The notes under the pieces are model-generated. The model had not been told where the DNA came from. It did no database searches and saw only the letters and a list, made by a program, of their open reading frames with translations. From an uncultured Ruminococcus sp. (GTDB lineage Bacteria; Bacillota; Clostridia; Oscillospirales; Ruminococcaceae), in assembly GCA_947174365.1 (NCBI GenBank), contig CAMWIR010000016.1:1-34646 (forward strand): a stretch of DNA of 34,646 bases, in the 5' to 3' direction. The position numbers were made by a program, and so were the translations under genes. Shown piece by piece: positions 23,154 to 31,559 of this stretch (the stretch's first letter is position 1; each line of letters begins with the position of its first letter).

Positions 23154-24383
23154 TTAGTCCCATTCGCCGCCGCGGGCTTCCATCATGGCGGTGATTATTT
23201 CGGGGTATCTCCATTCGTAGCTCTTTCGGTCAATAAGTCCGAAATTCTCACCGTTGCCGACGAATGCGTTGTTGTCCCACCATACGCAGGGAACGCCTGC
23301 TTCGGTTGCCTTGGTGATATAGTAACGTGCGCAGTCGGCTCTGGCGGCGGTGTTCATACGGTTTCTCGAACCGAATTCGCCCATAATGACCGCCTGTCCC
23401 TTGTCAATATATCTGTCTTTGAGATCCGCAAAAAGAACGTCAATATCCCGTGTATCCCCTGCATTGTCAGAACTCCATTCGCTGACAGCCGATTCGGGTC
23501 CTGCCAGGGCAAAGTTATAGGGAAGATATGCATGAACGGACAAGATCACCTTGTCATCGTCGGGTATCACCGTTTCGTTCAGCACCTGCCCCGAGGTGGA
23601 GGCGGCATAGGTGGGCACCATAAGGTGACGGTTTGCGTTATTGCCCCCGGTAGCACGAACGGTCTCCACAAAGGCGGCATTCCAATGGTTTATTACCTCC
23701 CTTGCCTCGGCATTGCCTCCTGTCCATTCCATGGGAGTGCCCTTAAGGCGAGGCTCGTTCATGCCCTCAAAAATAAGCTTTTCATTGTAATCCTTGAAGT
23801 ATTCGGCGATCTGCTTCCATATGGCACGCAGTATCTCATCCGCAGCCGCTTCATTATCGGCAGTGGGATTGTTCCACTCTTCATGGTGAGCGTTCAGGAT
23901 AACGAACATATCATTGGCATAAGCGTAGTCAACGACCTCCTTGACCCTTGCGAGCCAGTCCTCACGGATAGTGTAATCGGGAGCTTCGCCGAACTTACCC
24001 TCCCATGTAACAGGCAGCCGCAGAACATTAAAGCCCTGTGCCTTAACGCTGTCAATAAGCCGCTGCGTGGTAACGGGCTGCCCCCAGGCGGTTTCCCACT
24101 GTTCTGCGGTTTCGTTGCCGTCGGGATTTTCTATCAGCGAATCAAAGGTATTGCCCAGATTCCAGCCCACACGCATTTCCTTGACCAACTCAATTGAAGG
24201 AATGTCCCTCATGGGGGTCATTTCATAAAGCGCCTCGGTGACTTCTGCCTGTGTGTCCTCGGGAGTCACGGCGTCGTCCGAATTACTGTCCTTGCACCCT
24301 GCAAGGCAGGAAATACACATAGCCGCTGCCAATGCAGCCATTGCAATTTTCTTCATTGCTGCAATTTTCTTTATTTTTATCAT
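23154..24383 (-). CDS. Glycoside hydrolase family 5 cellulase/endoglucanase, lipoprotein
   Basis: MKKIAMAALAAAMCISCLAGC lipobox; MRVGWNLGNTFDS, GFNVLRLPVTWEG, ILNAHHE, FEGMNEPR (acid/base), VIMGEFGS (nucleophile), VPCVWWDNN. Confidence 0.92.
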   Translation of the reverse strand: MIKIKKIAAMKKIAMAALAAAMCISCLAGCKDSNSDDAVTPEDTQAEVTEALYEMTPMRDIPSIELVKEMRVGWNLGNTFDSLIENPDGNETAEQWETAWGQPVTTQRLIDSVKAQGFNVLRLPVTWEGKFGEAPDYTIREDWLARVKEVVDYAYANDMFVILNAHHEEWNNPTADNEAAADEILRAIWKQIAEYFKDYNEKLIFEGMNEPRLKGTPMEWTGGNAEAREVINHWNAAFVETVRATGGNNANRHLMVPTYAASTSGQVLNETVIPDDDKVILSVHAYLPYNFALAGPESAVSEWSSDNAGDTRDIDVLFADLKDRYIDKGQAVIMGEFGSRNRMNTAARADCARYYITKATEAGVPCVWWDNNAFVGNGENFGLIDRKSYEWRYPEIITAMMEARGGEWD

Positions 24384-24409
24384 TGTTATTTGATCCTTTC
24401 TTATAAGTA

Positions 24410-25087
24410 TCACTCCTGCTCCGCACGAAGAGAATCCGTACTCAGGCTGCCTGTGTCGATAACGTTGATATCCCCGCGGACAAACTCATCCGGGTGGAGC
24501 GTTTTGTCTCTGAGACCCTCGGTGTCGATGTTTTCCGCAGTTCCTGCGATACGGATAACGGCAGGAGCGGCAGGCCCTTCCCGCAGCCCCGTGACCTCGG
24601 GCACAGCAATGTTGGGGTCGACTCTTCCCCTGCGGTTCTTGCGCCTGTCGATATCGCTGAAAAAGTCCTCCGCACTGGAAGGGTCAAGCACCTTTTTGGC
24701 ACGCCGCTGCTCTTCCTTTTCCTCCGACCAGGGAGTAACATCTGCTGTTTTGTCGGGCAGAACTTCTGTGTCCACGCTGCTTTCCCCGGCCCCGACAATA
24801 TCGCCGCGAACAAATACGTCTGGATCGGCGATCTTATCCCGCAGACCGTCCGTATCGGGAGTGTCCATATCCTTCAAGGTGCTTTTGGGAGGAGGGGGCG
24901 GAGACTCTCTCAGTCCCGTTACCTCTGGCACTTCTATGGTATCGTCTACTTTTTTGGGCCGCTTTTTCCTGTTGTCAATATCCTTGAAAAAATCTTCTGC
25001 GCTCACATTTGCTGCGGGAGCAGGGGCCGCCTTTTGCACCGGTACGGGTGCGGGAGTTTTCGGTTTGCCTATATTAAATAAAGCCAT
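24410..25087 (-). CDS. Uncharacterised internally duplicated proline/acidic-rich protein
   Basis: 225 aa from MALFNIGKPKTP. Two copies of SAEDFFxDIDxRKxRxxxVDxxIxVPEVTGLRExP...DTxGLRDKxxxPDxFVRGDI, offset 109-110 aa. Confidence 0.75.
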   Translation of the reverse strand: MALFNIGKPKTPAPVPVQKAAPAPAANVSAEDFFKDIDNRKKRPKKVDDTIEVPEVTGLRESPPPPPKSTLKDMDTPDTDGLRDKIADPDVFVRGDIVGAGESSVDTEVLPDKTADVTPWSEEKEEQRRAKKVLDPSSAEDFFSDIDRRKNRRGRVDPNIAVPEVTGLREGPAAPAVIRIAGTAENIDTEGLRDKTLHPDEFVRGDINVIDTGSLSTDSLRAEQE

Positions 25088-25320
25088 TTGTGAGTCCTCC
25101 TTAACCTTAAATCCCGTCCCGCCGAAGCTCTCGGCAGACGGTTTTTTCATTTACATATTTTAATTATACCATATAATCCCCCGATTGTCTATAATTTTTG
25201 GAGAAAAAGTTGATTTTTTTGGTGGATTTTTATAGCACATCTTGCTTTTCAAAGCCTGCTTTGCTAAACAGGTATGATAAAATGAATATCCAAACACGGA
25301 TACAAGGCTGCCGCCGAACC

Positions 25321-26799
25321 TTAACCGCCAAGCGCTGCCTCTGCCGTCCCTACTCTGTCCCCGAAAGCCCCGTCGTGCTCGGCAAAAATGAGCGTGGGAG
25401 AATATTCCGTGACCAGCCTCTCTATCTGCATTCGGGATAGCACGTCCACAAAATTCAGCGGCTCATCCCAGATATACAAATGCGCTCTCTGACAAAGACT
25501 GCGTGCAATGGCTGCCTTTTTCCGCTGTCCGCAGCTGAGGCTTTCCAAAGGCAGTTCAAAATCGCTCCGCCCGAAGTCCAGCTTCCGCAGAATTGTCAGA
25601 AACAAGCTGTAGTCAATATCAAAGCTGTCCGCATATTCACGCAGGCTTCCACACAAACCCTCAGCGTCCTGCTCCACACGGGAAATTATTACTCCGCTGC
25701 CAAGGCTCACCTTCCCCTCATAAGGTACATCTTCCCCGCAAATCGCCCGTAAAACCGAGCTTTTTCCGCTGCCGTTGCCTCCTGTCAAACGCAGCCTGTC
25801 TCCTCTGTGCACCTCAAAGGAAATATCCCTGCAAACGCCCTCGCCGTACATCAGAGAAAAATGCTCTACCCTGCATATCACATCCGAATGATATTTCATG
25901 CCGCTGATTTTAAGGTCATCGCTTTTCTCAATATTTTTAAGAAGCTTCGACTTTTCCTCCAGCGCATTTGCTGCACGGTTCTCAAAAGCCTTAGCCCTTG
26001 CCGCCGCTTTCCTCGCCTTTTCTCCGTAATAAGCCCGCCTGTTTGCAGCAAGCTCCCCGTCTGTACGCGTCTTTTTCTTCTCCGCATTTGCCGACCATTC
26101 CGCAGCACGTTTGGCGGACTTCTCCAAAGACTTTATTTCCTTTTTCAGCTTCTCATTTTCCGCCAGTTCATATTCGTCACGCCGTCTGCGTTCTTCTTCC
26201 CAGGCAGAAAAATTGCCCTTTATCATCTCGATATCATTGCGGTTAATGGAAATAACATGGTCAATTACCCTGTCCAGAAACATTCTGTCATGGCTGACTA
26301 AGATAAATCCCTTTTTCCCCCGCAAATACTCCGCAAGCGCCTCCCTGCCGCCGCTGTCCAGATGATTTGTAGGCTCGTCTATGAGCAAAAAGCTGTTTTC
26401 TTTCAGAAACATGGCGGCCAGCAAGCACTTCGTTCTCTCCCCCATGGAAAGGGTGCAGAAGGGTCGGTACAATATATCCTCCCTCGCCCCCAAAAGGGAA
26501 ATTTCCCTGCAAATCTGCCAGTCCTGCGCCCCCGAAATTTCGCGGATAATATCCATTACAAATTCATTTTCATCCAGCGGCGTGTAGGGAAAATATTCAA
26601 AATCCACCGACGCATTTATGCTGCCCTTATATTCAAATTCACCCATAAGCAGCCGCAGAAAGGTAGTCTTTCCCCTGCCGTTGCGCCCGATAAAGCCCGT
26701 TTTCCAGTCCGTGTCCAGATTCAGTGAAACGTCCTCGAAAACATTTTCAAAGCTCCCCTCATACCCAAAAGTAAGCCCCGATATTTTTATAATTGACAT
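25321..26799 (-). CDS. ABC-F ATPase, Lsa/CplR-like ribosomal protection type
   Basis: Two ATPase cassettes (GRNGRGKTT, GGNGSGKSS; LSMGERTK, LSCGQRKK), no TM segments, charged linker; WDEPLNFVDVLSRMQIERLVTEYSPTLIFAEHD is characteristic of Lsa-type proteins. Confidence 0.85.
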   Translation of the reverse strand: MSIIKISGLTFGYEGSFENVFEDVSLNLDTDWKTGFIGRNGRGKTTFLRLLMGEFEYKGSINASVDFEYFPYTPLDENEFVMDIIREISGAQDWQICREISLLGAREDILYRPFCTLSMGERTKCLLAAMFLKENSFLLIDEPTNHLDSGGREALAEYLRGKKGFILVSHDRMFLDRVIDHVISINRNDIEMIKGNFSAWEEERRRRDEYELAENEKLKKEIKSLEKSAKRAAEWSANAEKKKTRTDGELAANRRAYYGEKARKAAARAKAFENRAANALEEKSKLLKNIEKSDDLKISGMKYHSDVICRVEHFSLMYGEGVCRDISFEVHRGDRLRLTGGNGSGKSSVLRAICGEDVPYEGKVSLGSGVIISRVEQDAEGLCGSLREYADSFDIDYSLFLTILRKLDFGRSDFELPLESLSCGQRKKAAIARSLCQRAHLYIWDEPLNFVDVLSRMQIERLVTEYSPTLIFAEHDGAFGDRVGTAEAALGG

Positions 26800-26825
26800 A
26801 ATATATGCACCACCTTTAATAGAGG

Positions 26826-26852
26826 CAAGAAGCAGGAGGCAAGAAAAGTTTT
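26826..26852. repeat. Heptanucleotide-like repeat in ABC-F leader
   Basis: AGGCAAGAAGCAGGAGGCAAGAA (+ strand); reverse complement TTCTTGCCTCCTGCTTCTTGCCT resembles 20748-20781. Confidence 0.6.
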
Positions 26853-26899
26853 CCCCGACTGCTGCTTATTGCCTGTTATTTGATTTTGATTTGATAAAC

Positions 26900-26935
26900 A
26901 AAAACGGCTGCGGGAAACTCATTTCCCACAGCCGT
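26900..26935 (-). terminator. Rho-independent terminator inside the ABC-F leader (candidate attenuator)
   Basis: Minus strand ACGGCTGTGGGAAA-tgag-TTTCCCGCAGCCGT-TTTTG; 14-bp stem with one G-U, 105 nt before the ABC-F start. Confidence 0.85.
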
Positions 26936-27103
26936 CCGCAAAGATGCATATGCGCAGTGCACATTGCACCGACCGAGACCGCAAAAGCCTCGGCGCAAAA
27001 CCCGATCAGACAAAAAAAGCCGTGAAAATATGCGTATTCCCGCAAAAAAAGCACCTGCAAACCGACACACCGAACAAAGCCGCAATAACCAACGCAGCCG
27101 GAT

Positions 27104-27157
27104 TCAACCTATCCGATCTTGCAAATACTTACAGGGAATATTTACGCATCTTCTCAC
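27104..27157 (-). CDS. Candidate leader peptides upstream of ABC-F gene
   Basis: GTG-start 17-codon ORF (M)RRCVNIPCKYLQDRIG (27157-27104). It overlaps ATG-start MRKYSL (27149-27129). Both lie about 20-30 nt from the predicted TSS. Confidence 0.4.
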   Translation of the reverse strand: MRRCVNIPCKYLQDRIG

Positions 27158-27182
27158 GCTCGCTTTCTTTAAATTATTTTTG

Positions 27183-27211
27183 ATTATATCACAAAAAATC
27201 AGCCTTGTCAA
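27183..27211 (-). promoter_or_regulatory. Consensus promoter for the ABC-F leader
   Basis: Minus strand TTGACA (27211-27206), 17-bp spacer, TATAAT (27188-27183). Confidence 0.88.
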
Positions 27212-27220
27212 GTGTTTTTG

Positions 27221-27254
27221 AAAAAAAGATCCGCAAATCTTTCGACTGCGGATC
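27221..27254 (-). terminator. Terminator downstream of the PrsA/SurA-like gene
   Basis: Minus strand GATCCGCA...TGCGGATC followed by TTTTTTT. Confidence 0.8.
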
Positions 27255-27310
27255 CAAAATATATAAATTTCCGTATCCGGCAAGCAGTAACCGCATTGCC
27301 GCACCCATTA

Positions 27311-28750
27311 TCAATTATTAATTAATTCCTTCGGGTCATATCTCTTATACGATTCCTCATTCTTAGCAACATTCTGCACTGCTGTCCAGCCGTCAAGAAC
27401 CGAATCGTAATCCGCCTCCTTCATCTCAAAAAGCAGAGAAGTTCTTGCCGCCTCAAAATAGCTTTCATCCTCCAGAATATCCAGCTTTACAACTATATAA
27501 TAATGCTCGCCGTCAGGGGTCTCAACGATCTCGATGTCTCCATTCTTCATCTCTCCGAAAACCTTTTCGGAAACGGTCGCATTAGGCACGCTGCCGTCCT
27601 TTTCAATGATAGTGCGGTTGCTGTCAACAGTGTTTACGGATATAAGATCGTCCAGGTTAAAATCGCTTAAATCAAAATCCTCGCCGTCCTCGGCATTGTC
27701 GGAAGTATTTTCGCCCTCAGTTCCGACAGCATTGTCTGCCGTCACGGAAGCTTCGCTTTCGGCGTTATCCGTATTATCAGGCTCGGAAGCCTCCGCAGCG
27801 TCTCCCTCGCCGCCAATATCGGCAGCCGCCGAAACAGCCTCACCCTCCGCAGTCTCTTCTTCCTCATCGGCAGCTATCTCATCACCGTCTCCCGAATCGG
27901 AAGCCTGTGCATCGGATACCTCGACCTCTGCCAGTCCTCCGAAAAGATTATCGCCCTCGGCTTCAATGCCGTCAATGCCGAAACTGTTATCGGCAGAGTT
28001 TGCCGCAGCCTCCTCCTGAAGATCCTGATAATATGTCACATACTCCGCATTAAGCTCGTCAAAATCCTCTCCGTTTTTGAACCGCTCCACGTATTCCTGT
28101 GCCATAGCCATTCTCTCTGCCTTGCCGTCGGATTTCAGAAGATTGCCCTCGCCGTCTTTCAGCTCCATATCAATGTAATTTATAAGAGCGTAATTTTCAT
28201 CAAGATAGCTTTTTATATCGCTGTTCGGAACGCCGTATTCTCCCTCCTCGGAAAATAAATGCTCAAAAAGCTTGCTGCGCTTTGCATTATTCAGGTAAAT
28301 GGACATATAGGACTTTTTGCTTATGCCCATTTTATTGTAATATTCCTCAGCGTTTTCCCAAAGCTGGTCGCAGTAAAGCTGTGCCGAATCAAGCTCCTCG
28401 CTTGTCAGCGACAATCCGTATTCGTTAAATTTGCTCTCCACCGCAGCATATATCTGCATTTGCTTTGTGGCGTCATCATAAACCCAGTCCTTGCCGTTTT
28501 TCCCCTCAATGTCAGAGGTGTAAACATCCAAAACAGCCGTATCATCGGCATTTTCCAAGTTCTGCTCGTAAAGCTTGGACTGAGCGTCATAATAGGAGGT
28601 CTGCAAAAAATATATCAGCACCCCCGCAGGTATCCGCGCACCGTCAATATCCGCTCCCCAGGTAGTATTTTCTCCGCAGCCGGTCAGCCCCGCCGCCATG
28701 ACCGCCGCAATTGCCCCGGCAGCAAACCTTTTTATATTGATCCTCTTCAT
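27311..28750 (-). CDS. PrsA/SurA-like foldase lipoprotein with long acidic low-complexity insert
   Basis: MKRINIKRFAAGAIAAVMAAGLTGCGE lipobox, helical SurA_N-like segment, C-terminal KVFGEMKNGDIEIVETPDGEHYYIVVKLD (rotamase-like). Confidence 0.65.
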   Translation of the reverse strand: MKRINIKRFAAGAIAAVMAAGLTGCGENTTWGADIDGARIPAGVLIYFLQTSYYDAQSKLYEQNLENADDTAVLDVYTSDIEGKNGKDWVYDDATKQMQIYAAVESKFNEYGLSLTSEELDSAQLYCDQLWENAEEYYNKMGISKKSYMSIYLNNAKRSKLFEHLFSEEGEYGVPNSDIKSYLDENYALINYIDMELKDGEGNLLKSDGKAERMAMAQEYVERFKNGEDFDELNAEYVTYYQDLQEEAAANSADNSFGIDGIEAEGDNLFGGLAEVEVSDAQASDSGDGDEIAADEEEETAEGEAVSAAADIGGEGDAAEASEPDNTDNAESEASVTADNAVGTEGENTSDNAEDGEDFDLSDFNLDDLISVNTVDSNRTIIEKDGSVPNATVSEKVFGEMKNGDIEIVETPDGEHYYIVVKLDILEDESYFEAARTSLLFEMKEADYDSVLDGWTAVQNVAKNEESYKRYDPKELINN

Positions 28751-29001: not shown

Positions 29002-31392
29002 TCACTTCAGTTCTGCCACCGTAACCCCGTCCTCGCCCTCGCCGAAAACGCCGCTGCGGAAGCTTTTGACCGACGGATGTCCCTTTAAATGCTGCCTTAT
29101 GCCCTGCCTCAGAAGTCCCGTTCCCTTGCCGTGGATAATGGTAACAAAGCAAACTCCCGAAAGCACCGCATTGTCAATAAATCTGTCCGTTTCGATTATC
29201 CCCTCGTCCACAGCGCAGCCCCGTATGTCCAGTTCAAGAGAGCTTTTCCGCTCCATTTTCCCCGTGACCTTGGCTTTTGAAACGCCGCCTTGCTTACGTC
29301 CCGCCGTCTTTGCCTGCGGCTTCTCCTCTTCAATAAGCCGCAATGCGGAAACATTCACTCTCGTTTTCATTATCCCCACCTGCACAAACAAACTGTCGCT
29401 GCCGTCGGGCTTCCCTGCAACTATCCCCTTTTGATTCAGAGTAGTCACAAATACTCTGTCCCCCTGCCTGTAAGGACGGGGCGGCTTGTACTCCTCCTCT
29501 TCCCTGCGGCGCACAGGACTTGCCTCGTCAAACATTCTGTTAAGAGCATTCTTGCTGGCGGACTTTGCCCCCAGGGAGCGCTGCTCGAATTTTTCCTTGT
29601 TGTTCTCCCGCCGTATATCCGCCAGTTCGTCCAAAAGCTTCTCCGACTGCATACGGCAGCTTTCCACTATCCTAAGAGCCTCCACCCGGGCTTTTTCAAA
29701 TTCGGCGTCCTTTTTCGCCTCAAATTCCTGTCTGGCTCTGTTGTTTTCTTCTATCAGTCTCTCTTGCTCCGCCTTTAATTCACGCAATTCACTTGCCTGC
29801 CTGTCCATCTCCCGACGCGCATTCTCCAGCTGCTCCACAACCTCCTCAAACCGCCTGTTTTCATCGGAAACCATGGACTTTGCCTCGCTTATCACATCAT
29901 CGGGGATCCCCAGTCTGGACGATATATAAAATGCATTGGATTTTCCCGGCGAGCCGATAATGAGCCTGTAGGTGGGCTGCAAGGTATTAATGTCAAATTC
30001 ACAGGAAGCGTTCTCTACATTTTCTTTCTCTATGGCAAACATTTTAAGCTCCTGATAATGGGTGGTCACCAGCAGCCTGCTGCCCTTTTGCAGCATATTT
30101 TCGATCAGCGCCACAGCCAGCGCCGCCCCCTCAACAGGGTCCGTACCGGACCCCAACTCGTCCAGCAGAATAAGCGAACGCTCTCCCGCAGTTTTCAGTA
30201 TATCCGAAACATTCCCCATGTGTGAAGAAAATGTGGAAAGGCTCTGCTCAATGCTCTGCATATCCCCTATGTCCACTAAAATGTGGTCAAATACGGAGAT
30301 CTTGCTGCCGTCCCCCGCAGGTATCATCATTCCGCACATAGCCATAGCCGAAAGCAGCCCCGCCGTTTTCAGCAGCACTGTTTTTCCTCCCGTATTGGGT
30401 CCCGTAACAATAAGCGCATTGTAATCCACGCCTAACTCAATATCCACCGGCACAGCCGTTTTCGGGTCAAGCAGCGGGTGACGGGCTTTCTTTAATATCA
30501 GCTCCCCGTCCTCGGAAATCTCGGGTACACATCCCTTCATCTTCGCTCCGAGCCCCGACTTTGCAAAATATAAATTAAGCTCCGCCGCCGTCTCGAAATC
30601 CCTTATCATAGCCTCTCCGCAAGCTGCGCAATCGGCGGAAAGCTCAGCAATTATCCTTTCGATCTCCTCCTGCTCCAGACCCTGCAAGACCCTTATGTCA
30701 TTATTGGCCTCGACTACTGCCTCGGGTTCGATAAAAAGAGTTGAGCCCGTAGCAGAGGACGCGTGCACGATACCTCTTACATTCCCCTTGTGCTCCGCCT
30801 TAACGGGAAGAACGTACCGCCCGTCACGCACCGTCACAATGCTTTCCATAAGGCTTTTCTGAACCTCGGCCGAGCGTATCATCTTATCAAGGCTTTCTCT
30901 TATCCGCACCCCTGCCCGCGCAATTTTTCTGCGGATATTCATAAGCTCGGCGCTTGCCGTGTCCGCAATCTCGTCCTCGGAAAGTACGGCATTCCTGATC
31001 TTTTCCTCAAGCCATTTGTTTGGCGATAGACTCTCAAAAAATTCATCAAGACAGCTGCTTATATCCCCGCAGCATATACGGTAATCGGAAAGTCCCCTCA
31101 CCTGCCGCAGCAAAACTTCAATATCCAAAAGCTCCCGCAGCGTAAGGCTTGCCCCGGACATAGCCCTTTTGAGGGAATTTGTCACGTCCTTGAAATTGTA
31201 AAAAGGAGGCGTTCCGAACTTTACCGAAAAATCAAAAGCGCATGAGGTTTTGTCAAGCTCCCTTTTCACCTTGTCAATATCGGACAACGGCTTCAGCACC
31301 GCCGCCATTTCCTTTGTTTTCTCATTTGAAGCCTGTTCGCTTAACATATCCATTATCTTGTATAATTCCAATGTTCTGTAATATTTATTCAT
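29002..31392 (-). CDS. mutS2: Endonuclease MutS2
   Basis: VTGPNTGGKTVLLKTAGLL (Walker A), LILLDELGSGTDPVEGAALA, C-terminal Smr domain LELDIRGCAVDEGIIETDRFIDNAVLSGVCFVTIIHGKGTGLLRQGI. RBS spacing favours ATG 31392. Confidence 0.95.
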   Translation of the reverse strand: MNKYYRTLELYKIMDMLSEQASNEKTKEMAAVLKPLSDIDKVKRELDKTSCAFDFSVKFGTPPFYNFKDVTNSLKRAMSGASLTLRELLDIEVLLRQVRGLSDYRICCGDISSCLDEFFESLSPNKWLEEKIRNAVLSEDEIADTASAELMNIRRKIARAGVRIRESLDKMIRSAEVQKSLMESIVTVRDGRYVLPVKAEHKGNVRGIVHASSATGSTLFIEPEAVVEANNDIRVLQGLEQEEIERIIAELSADCAACGEAMIRDFETAAELNLYFAKSGLGAKMKGCVPEISEDGELILKKARHPLLDPKTAVPVDIELGVDYNALIVTGPNTGGKTVLLKTAGLLSAMAMCGMMIPAGDGSKISVFDHILVDIGDMQSIEQSLSTFSSHMGNVSDILKTAGERSLILLDELGSGTDPVEGAALAVALIENMLQKGSRLLVTTHYQELKMFAIEKENVENASCEFDINTLQPTYRLIIGSPGKSNAFYISSRLGIPDDVISEAKSMVSDENRRFEEVVEQLENARREMDRQASELRELKAEQERLIEENNRARQEFEAKKDAEFEKARVEALRIVESCRMQSEKLLDELADIRRENNKEKFEQRSLGAKSASKNALNRMFDEASPVRRREEEEYKPPRPYRQGDRVFVTTLNQKGIVAGKPDGSDSLFVQVGIMKTRVNVSALRLIEEEKPQAKTAGRKQGGVSKAKVTGKMERKSSLELDIRGCAVDEGIIETDRFIDNAVLSGVCFVTIIHGKGTGLLRQGIRQHLKGHPSVKSFRSGVFGEGEDGVTVAELK

Positions 31393-31414
31393 ATCCATAT
31401 CCTTTCGCAGATAA

Positions 31415-31559
31415 TTAAGGAAGCTCTGATTAAAGCATTTACCAAAAAATATGCCGTTCGTTAAACGGCAATTCGGCGAGGCTTTCTCCGCTGCCATCGT
31501 CATATATGACGGGCAATTTATGCCCTCGGGGAGAAAGCCTGTGATCAGCAGTTCCTTAA
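31415..31559. repeat. 145-bp multi-hairpin element with terminal inverted repeats (MITE-like or structured RNA)
   Basis: TTAAGGAA...CTGAT / ATCAG...TTCCTTAA ends; internal AGGCTTTCTCC/GGAGAAAGCCT (11 bp), TGCCGTT/AACGGCA, CGTCATATATGACG and GGGCA/TGCCC. Confidence 0.75.

Follow-up and report, generated by a model that had tools for sequence, protein, structure and literature searches.

How the expression of the ABC-F gene at this locus is controlled, and which element of its leader might sense the ribosome, is the question addressed here. The window analyzed is a stretch of 34,646 nucleotides from an uncultured Ruminococcus sp., and both the gene and its leader lie on the minus strand. The gene (25321-26799, ATG start codon at 26799) encodes a ribosomal protection protein of 492 amino acids, assigned by profile and structure matches. 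It scores 426 bits with the ribo_prot_ABC_F profile (cut-off 380) and 645 bits with the NCBIfam Lsa profile (NF000167), and among solved structures Lsa(A) comes nearest to it (7nhk, 428 bits). Since the match to the Lsa profile far exceeds all others, yet remains under the curated cut-off of 750 bits, we name the protein Lsa-like.

A sequence-only reading had proposed that the leader possesses its own promoter, two short overlapping upstream ORFs (uORFs) and an internal intrinsic terminator, all separated from the upstream gene by another terminator, and these elements were all recovered. The TTGACA-N17-TATAAT promoter at 27211-27183 matches in 12 of 12 positions and is extended by a TG before its second hexamer. 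It is 93% identical in the leader L002, which belongs to a genome of the same genus and is the sole close orthologue found (ABC-F 91% identical). Directly before the promoter, a hairpin followed by a T run (27227-27255), also found in L002, terminates the upstream gene and sets the leader apart from gene 27311-28750. A GTG ORF of 17 amino acids (27157-27104) overlaps MRKYSL, a uORF of six codons (27149-27129). The terminator preceding the ABC-F gene, T-A (26936-26903, -25.5 kcal/mol), consists of a stem of 15 bp followed by a T-rich run, and contains in its 3' arm, at 26912-26905, the 8-nt complement CGCAGCCG that had been announced. A promoter of its own, a short 5' uORF with a Shine-Dalgarno sequence (SD) and an intrinsic terminator between uORF and gene are characteristic of a vmlR-type attenuator, and the window presents all of them.

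The whole leader folds at -149 kcal/mol (z = -7.0 against its own shuffles), and is dominated by a large hairpin, SL-1 (27171-27012), that was missing, as were two U7 runs, from the sequence-only reading. The 5' arm of SL-1 is formed by the SD region and the uORF at the start of the transcript and the 3' arm is the antiterminator strand; GUGAGAAGAUGCGUAAAUAUUCCC pairs with GGGAAUACGCAUAUUUUCAC, and the inverted repeat covers 27158-27143 and 27036-27021. Its role as anti-antiterminator is suggested by folding, by equivalents in the family and by the covariation reported below. The base of SL-1 forms with a probability of 0.97 in the absence of a ribosome and of 0.0 when a ribosome is masked at the AUG (positions -14 to +15 around the AUG of the uORF). 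The pairing that would sequester the SD amounts to -10.2 kcal/mol in the window, compared to a family median of -10.6. An inner hairpin (27130-27049; AAGUAUUUGCA...UGCAGGUGCUU) forms irrespective of the masked ribosome. The U7 run within SL-1 opposite the uORF (27050-27044) is likely a pause site by analogy, as it resembles those opposite the vmlR uORF and fits programmed pausing of the RNA polymerase (NusG). Efficient termination at the inner hairpin and U7 would make induction fail, because this hairpin is present in both states. The other U7 run lies directly behind the SL-1 base (27018-27012) and is a U6 in L002.

The uORF was placed in its context by gathering the leaders of Lsa-like genes through genome searches and from GTDB genomes, which yielded 161 distinct leaders. 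A conserved uORF with the consensus M-x-x-x-S-C* occurs in 87 of them, preceded by the consensus GAGGTGAAAAG and with TTTCTTGC as nucleotide core. It has exactly six codons in 62 leaders (mostly MxxxSC*) and seven in 19, and a few are MRK*. Among leaders outside the set that built the motif, 38 of 84 score above all 60 of their own shuffles. The strict uORF pattern was matched 16 times in 398 genomes (reversed control, 0), with 14 matches located before Lsa-like genes and the remaining two before a second Lsa-type gene and an ABC exporter, respectively. The core is kept in two leaders where the stop precedes it (L066 and L170), and thus counts as an RNA element, not as a peptide. With a PSSM score of 21.5, MRKYSL stands near the bottom of the family range (18-57) and its core has diverged (UAUUCCC), and none of 60 shuffles reaches its score. 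Like its relatives, the window exhibits a six-codon uORF after an SD, whose core is complementary to a downstream segment and repeated in the 3' arm of the terminator. The uORF is base-for-base the same in L002 (100% identity), and the comparison with this orthologue shows 95-100% identity for the uORF, the SL-1 arms and region 2, a value that falls to 71% in the SL-1 tip, 72% in the linker and 68% at four-fold codon sites. These sequence comparisons support MRKYSL* as the probable sensing ORF and as a divergent member of the MxxxSC* family.

The alternative pairing is visible across the family. In the relatives, region 1 (the uORF core) resembles region 4 (in the terminator 3' arm), and each of them is complementary to region 2 (in the SL-1 3' arm). 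More broadly, the whole segment containing SD and uORF and the whole terminator look like direct repeats of each other (score 10.6, against 6.0 when shuffled). Over 62 leaders, pairing of the SL-1 3' arm is strongest with the terminator of the same leader, at -24.5 kcal/mol, compared to -19.6 with terminators taken from the others (p 3e-10, related leaders being treated as independent without correction for phylogeny, as in all our own-versus-cross tests) and -13.6 with shuffled terminators; in 89% of the leaders, the native pairing is stronger than the terminator hairpin. Covariation between regions 2 and 4 amounts to 15 two-sided cells against 5.3 in shuffled data, a value reached by 0 of 500 shuffles, region 4 having been picked by its likeness to the family consensus, independently of its own region 2. 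For regions 1 and 2, there are 16 such cells against 2.6, with the reservation that the choice of region 2 was itself guided by how well it fits region 1. In both cases, the family rows are related to each other. Permutation of the 8-mer cores gave a value as high in 0 of 2000 cases.

In the window, region 1 (27140-27134) lies within the uORF and ends at +16 from the A of the AUG, approximately the position of the initiation toeprint in vmlR, which lies 16 nt from that A (PMC9226507). The antiterminator strand (27045-27009), made of the SL-1 3' arm, is able to pair with 26936-26908 if SL-1 is blocked. The resulting duplex of 28 pairs (-32.6 kcal/mol) spans the whole terminator. Masking the ribosome in an equilibrium fold was rejected as sole evidence of switching, because at full length T-A remains at a probability of 0.99 under the mask; we therefore used explicit antiterminator energies together with folds of growing transcript prefixes. 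According to the former, the terminated state is ahead by 17.7 kcal/mol without ribosome and by 2.3 with the AUG masked, and it is still favored under the mask in 84% of the family leaders. In prefix folds with the mask, the inner antiterminator helix (27028-27019 with 26932-26923) reaches a probability of 0.94 once the T-A 5' arm exists, and the outer helix 0.83 when the RNA ends at 26909, with T-A still incomplete. When the mask is removed, the prefix folds contain SL-1 (0.97) and T-A, and the antiterminator remains at 0. In silico, the antiterminator hence excludes both SL-1 and the terminator, the latter regaining the edge at full length. Since T-A is favored at full-length equilibrium even with the ribosome, the switch must be kinetic and occur during transcription.

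We consider it likely that the Lsa-like gene is controlled by a transcription attenuator that depends on the ribosome as in vmlR, by means of MRKYSL in SL-1 and of the SL-1 3' arm. From the promoter, uORF family, SL-1, T-A, alternative pairing, covariation and predicted folding order computed here, we infer uORF translation, drug stalling, termination, read-through and the range of drugs as follows. Without drug, a ribosome would translate MRKYSL and depart, so that the uORF region would pair with its downstream complement to form SL-1 and lock the antiterminator strand away. T-A would then form and end transcription, and SL-1 with its own U7 may terminate too. Under a lincosamide, a streptogramin A, a pleuromutilin or a similar peptidyl-transferase drug, the ribosome would be held on the start of the uORF and would cover exactly the 5' arm of SL-1. 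The 3' arm of SL-1 thus freed (27045-27009) would take up the two arms of T-A in the order of their emergence, 5' before 3', and the RNA polymerase would continue into the ABC-F gene. More tentatively, with less than even confidence, we suggest that a single leader family precedes the Lsa-like ABC-F genes of Clostridia and Bacilli, with SD and uORF resembling a direct repeat of the terminator and one strand locking either of them. The uORF could then be a mere landing site for an initiating ribosome, reducible to AUG-stop, and in the lineage of the window the locking hairpin could also be a terminator, one stalled ribosome thus disabling two terminators.

In an alternative, SL-1 with the U7 at 27018-27012 is the main terminator, blocked by any ribosome on the uORF, and T-A a secondary checkpoint. 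The U run directly behind the SL-1 base in both the window and L002, and the inability of SL-1 to form under the masked ribosome, fit this view, and SL-1 may indeed be a terminator as judged from its sequence. However, a U6 or longer run near the end of SL-1 is found in just 5 of 63 leaders (window, L002, L149, L153, and L182), whereas the family generally has T-A and the antiterminator pairing. Moreover, the A-rich 5' base of SL-1 offers a pairing partner to the U run itself, and the stem would be very long for a terminator. We thus regard a second terminator directly blocked by the ribosome as a local variant, given the rarity of these runs, and its predominance as unlikely.

Another alternative is the switch initially proposed, with the GTG ORF as sensor and CGGCUGCG (27100-27093) as antiterminator strand. 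The ORF does exist in the window, as do the element CGGCTGCG at 27100-27093 and its exact 8-nt complement, and L002 contains a comparable complement, GGCUGCGG:CCGCAGCC, in a slightly shifted position. However, the stop codon expected 3 nt before CGGCTGCG is lost in L002, where the frame stays open for dozens more codons, and the GTG frame is not what the leader family conserves. In addition, CGGCUGCG is located in the tip of SL-1, which is variable (71% identity, while the arms reach 95-100%), the CGGCUGCG:CGCAGCCG pairing has a probability of 0.0 in all states, with or without masked ribosome, and a complement of at least 8 nt is present there in 2 of 62 leaders, the window being one. The proposal of a ribosome-sensing attenuator with promoter, internal terminator, uORF and antiterminator therefore holds, but the 17-amino-acid sensor and the CGGCUGCG:CGCAGCCG switch are highly improbable, a minor auxiliary role of the CGGCUGCG pairing being just conceivable given its shifted version in L002. 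A constitutive leader, whose hairpins would be relics and whose strong promoter would express the gene with partial termination, is highly improbable as well. In its favor, T-A is stable in equilibrium folds despite the masked ribosome, but relics would be expected neither to keep arms conserved over tip and linker nor to show covarying alternative pairings.

The vmlR-type attenuator that we favor belongs to a type that is already known from vmlR, cplR and other ABC-F leaders, of which it represents a well-defined sub-family with local variation. The leader of vmlR in Bacillus subtilis, whose attenuation logic is supported by mutants, similarly encloses its uORF in an SL-1 acting as anti-antiterminator, draws the antiterminator from SL-1, places an intrinsic terminator before the ABC-F gene, adds an SD-sequestering layer and pauses opposite the uORF, and MRK is among its natural uORF variants (PMC9226507). 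The window differs by its six-codon uORF, by the U7 behind SL-1 and by a predicted antiterminator that is able to engage the terminator hairpin over its whole length. The ABC-F leaders of cplR in Clostridioides difficile and of lmo0919/vgaL likewise have a short uORF and an anti-SD element and undergo premature termination, the uORF of cplR being MR[I/M] (PMC10201436); the window differs by its Lsa-like subfamily, its uORF and its weakly supported anti-RBS element. The lsa(A) leader precedes a gene of the same ABC-F subfamily and has a short uORF, with uORF4u consensus MAGN (PMC10201436) as opposed to MxxxSC or MRKYSL in the present, wider leader family, which fell outside the uORF search of that study due to an 80% identity cut-off for LsaA relatives. 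Ribosome-mediated attenuation through uORF stalling was also described for msrD and the Streptomyces ARE5 genes tiaA and are5sc (PMC10314930, PMC12421871), but their leaders are unrelated and msrD responds to macrolides.

A search of the literature for MRNFSC, MINFSC, MYNFSC, MRKFSC, and MRKYSL, which covered few subscription journals, returned nothing relevant; no description of the leader family was found in the literature searched, and an earlier one may exist. No known Rfam family was matched by the window leader at gathering score or at E-values up to 1, nor by the leaders of ten relatives. The leader was also considered as a repeated or mobile element, an idea abandoned after 0 leader-length matches in 299 family genomes and no plasmid match. 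The account given here is testable at the sequence level: in a broad range of gut and environmental Firmicutes, Lsa-like resistance proteins may be kept silent as long as no ribosome-targeting drug is present, which predicts an inducible resistance invisible from genotype alone. The direct-repeat design, with a sensor copy of the terminator, and the AUG-stop uORFs raise the question of whether a peptide is needed or merely a stalled initiating ribosome.

Several variants of the leader are worth reporting. In Cohnella, Brevibacillus, and Paenibacillus (L035, L037, L040, L046, and L048), the uORF has apparently shrunk to AUG-stop (ATGTGA or ATGTAA), whereas SL-1 and the terminator are retained, as is the CTTGC portion of the core; the energies with masked ribosome favor the antiterminator in four of these five leaders. 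Diverged leaders of the same genus as the window (L006, L007, L008, and L012) harbor three-codon uORFs, MRK* or MRR*, with a TTTCC core, a similar pairing logic and a weaker computed switch. The energies obtained in this way for L002 were set aside, as the U run of SL-1 was taken there for the terminator in place of T-A. Genome G164 encodes a second Lsa-type ABC-F gene (L199, 1501-2574) with the same leader uORF. In L205 (1600-1240, minus strand), a leader of this same kind, with promoter, uORF MIYVSC*, SL-1 3' arm and terminator, precedes an ABC exporter with an MsbA-like match in place of an ABC-F gene, an arrangement that recalls the bmrCD attenuator of B. subtilis.

Downstream of SL-1, a possible anti-RBS element (AAUGUGCACUGCG, 26965-26953) pairs with GGUGGUGCAUAUA at the ABC-F RBS. 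Such pairing is supported across the family (own -13.1 versus cross -10.9, p 5e-6), but weak in the window itself, where 7% of shuffles are equally good, and sequestration of the RBS is thus possible in this leader. Between T-A and the RBS (26822-26845, minus strand), two copies of TTCTTGCCTC carry the TTCTTGC core of the family, and may derive from a former terminator or provide region 2 with an additional partner. Neighbors of the ABC-F locus include a GH5 cellulase-like protein (23154-24413, minus strand) and MutS2 (29002-31503, minus strand). Neither gene 27311-28750, directly upstream of the leader, nor a protein of 246 amino acids (24410-25150) has a Pfam match, and the latter exhibits an apparent duplicated segment, FF.DID.RK...VPEVTGLRE...D..VRGDI.
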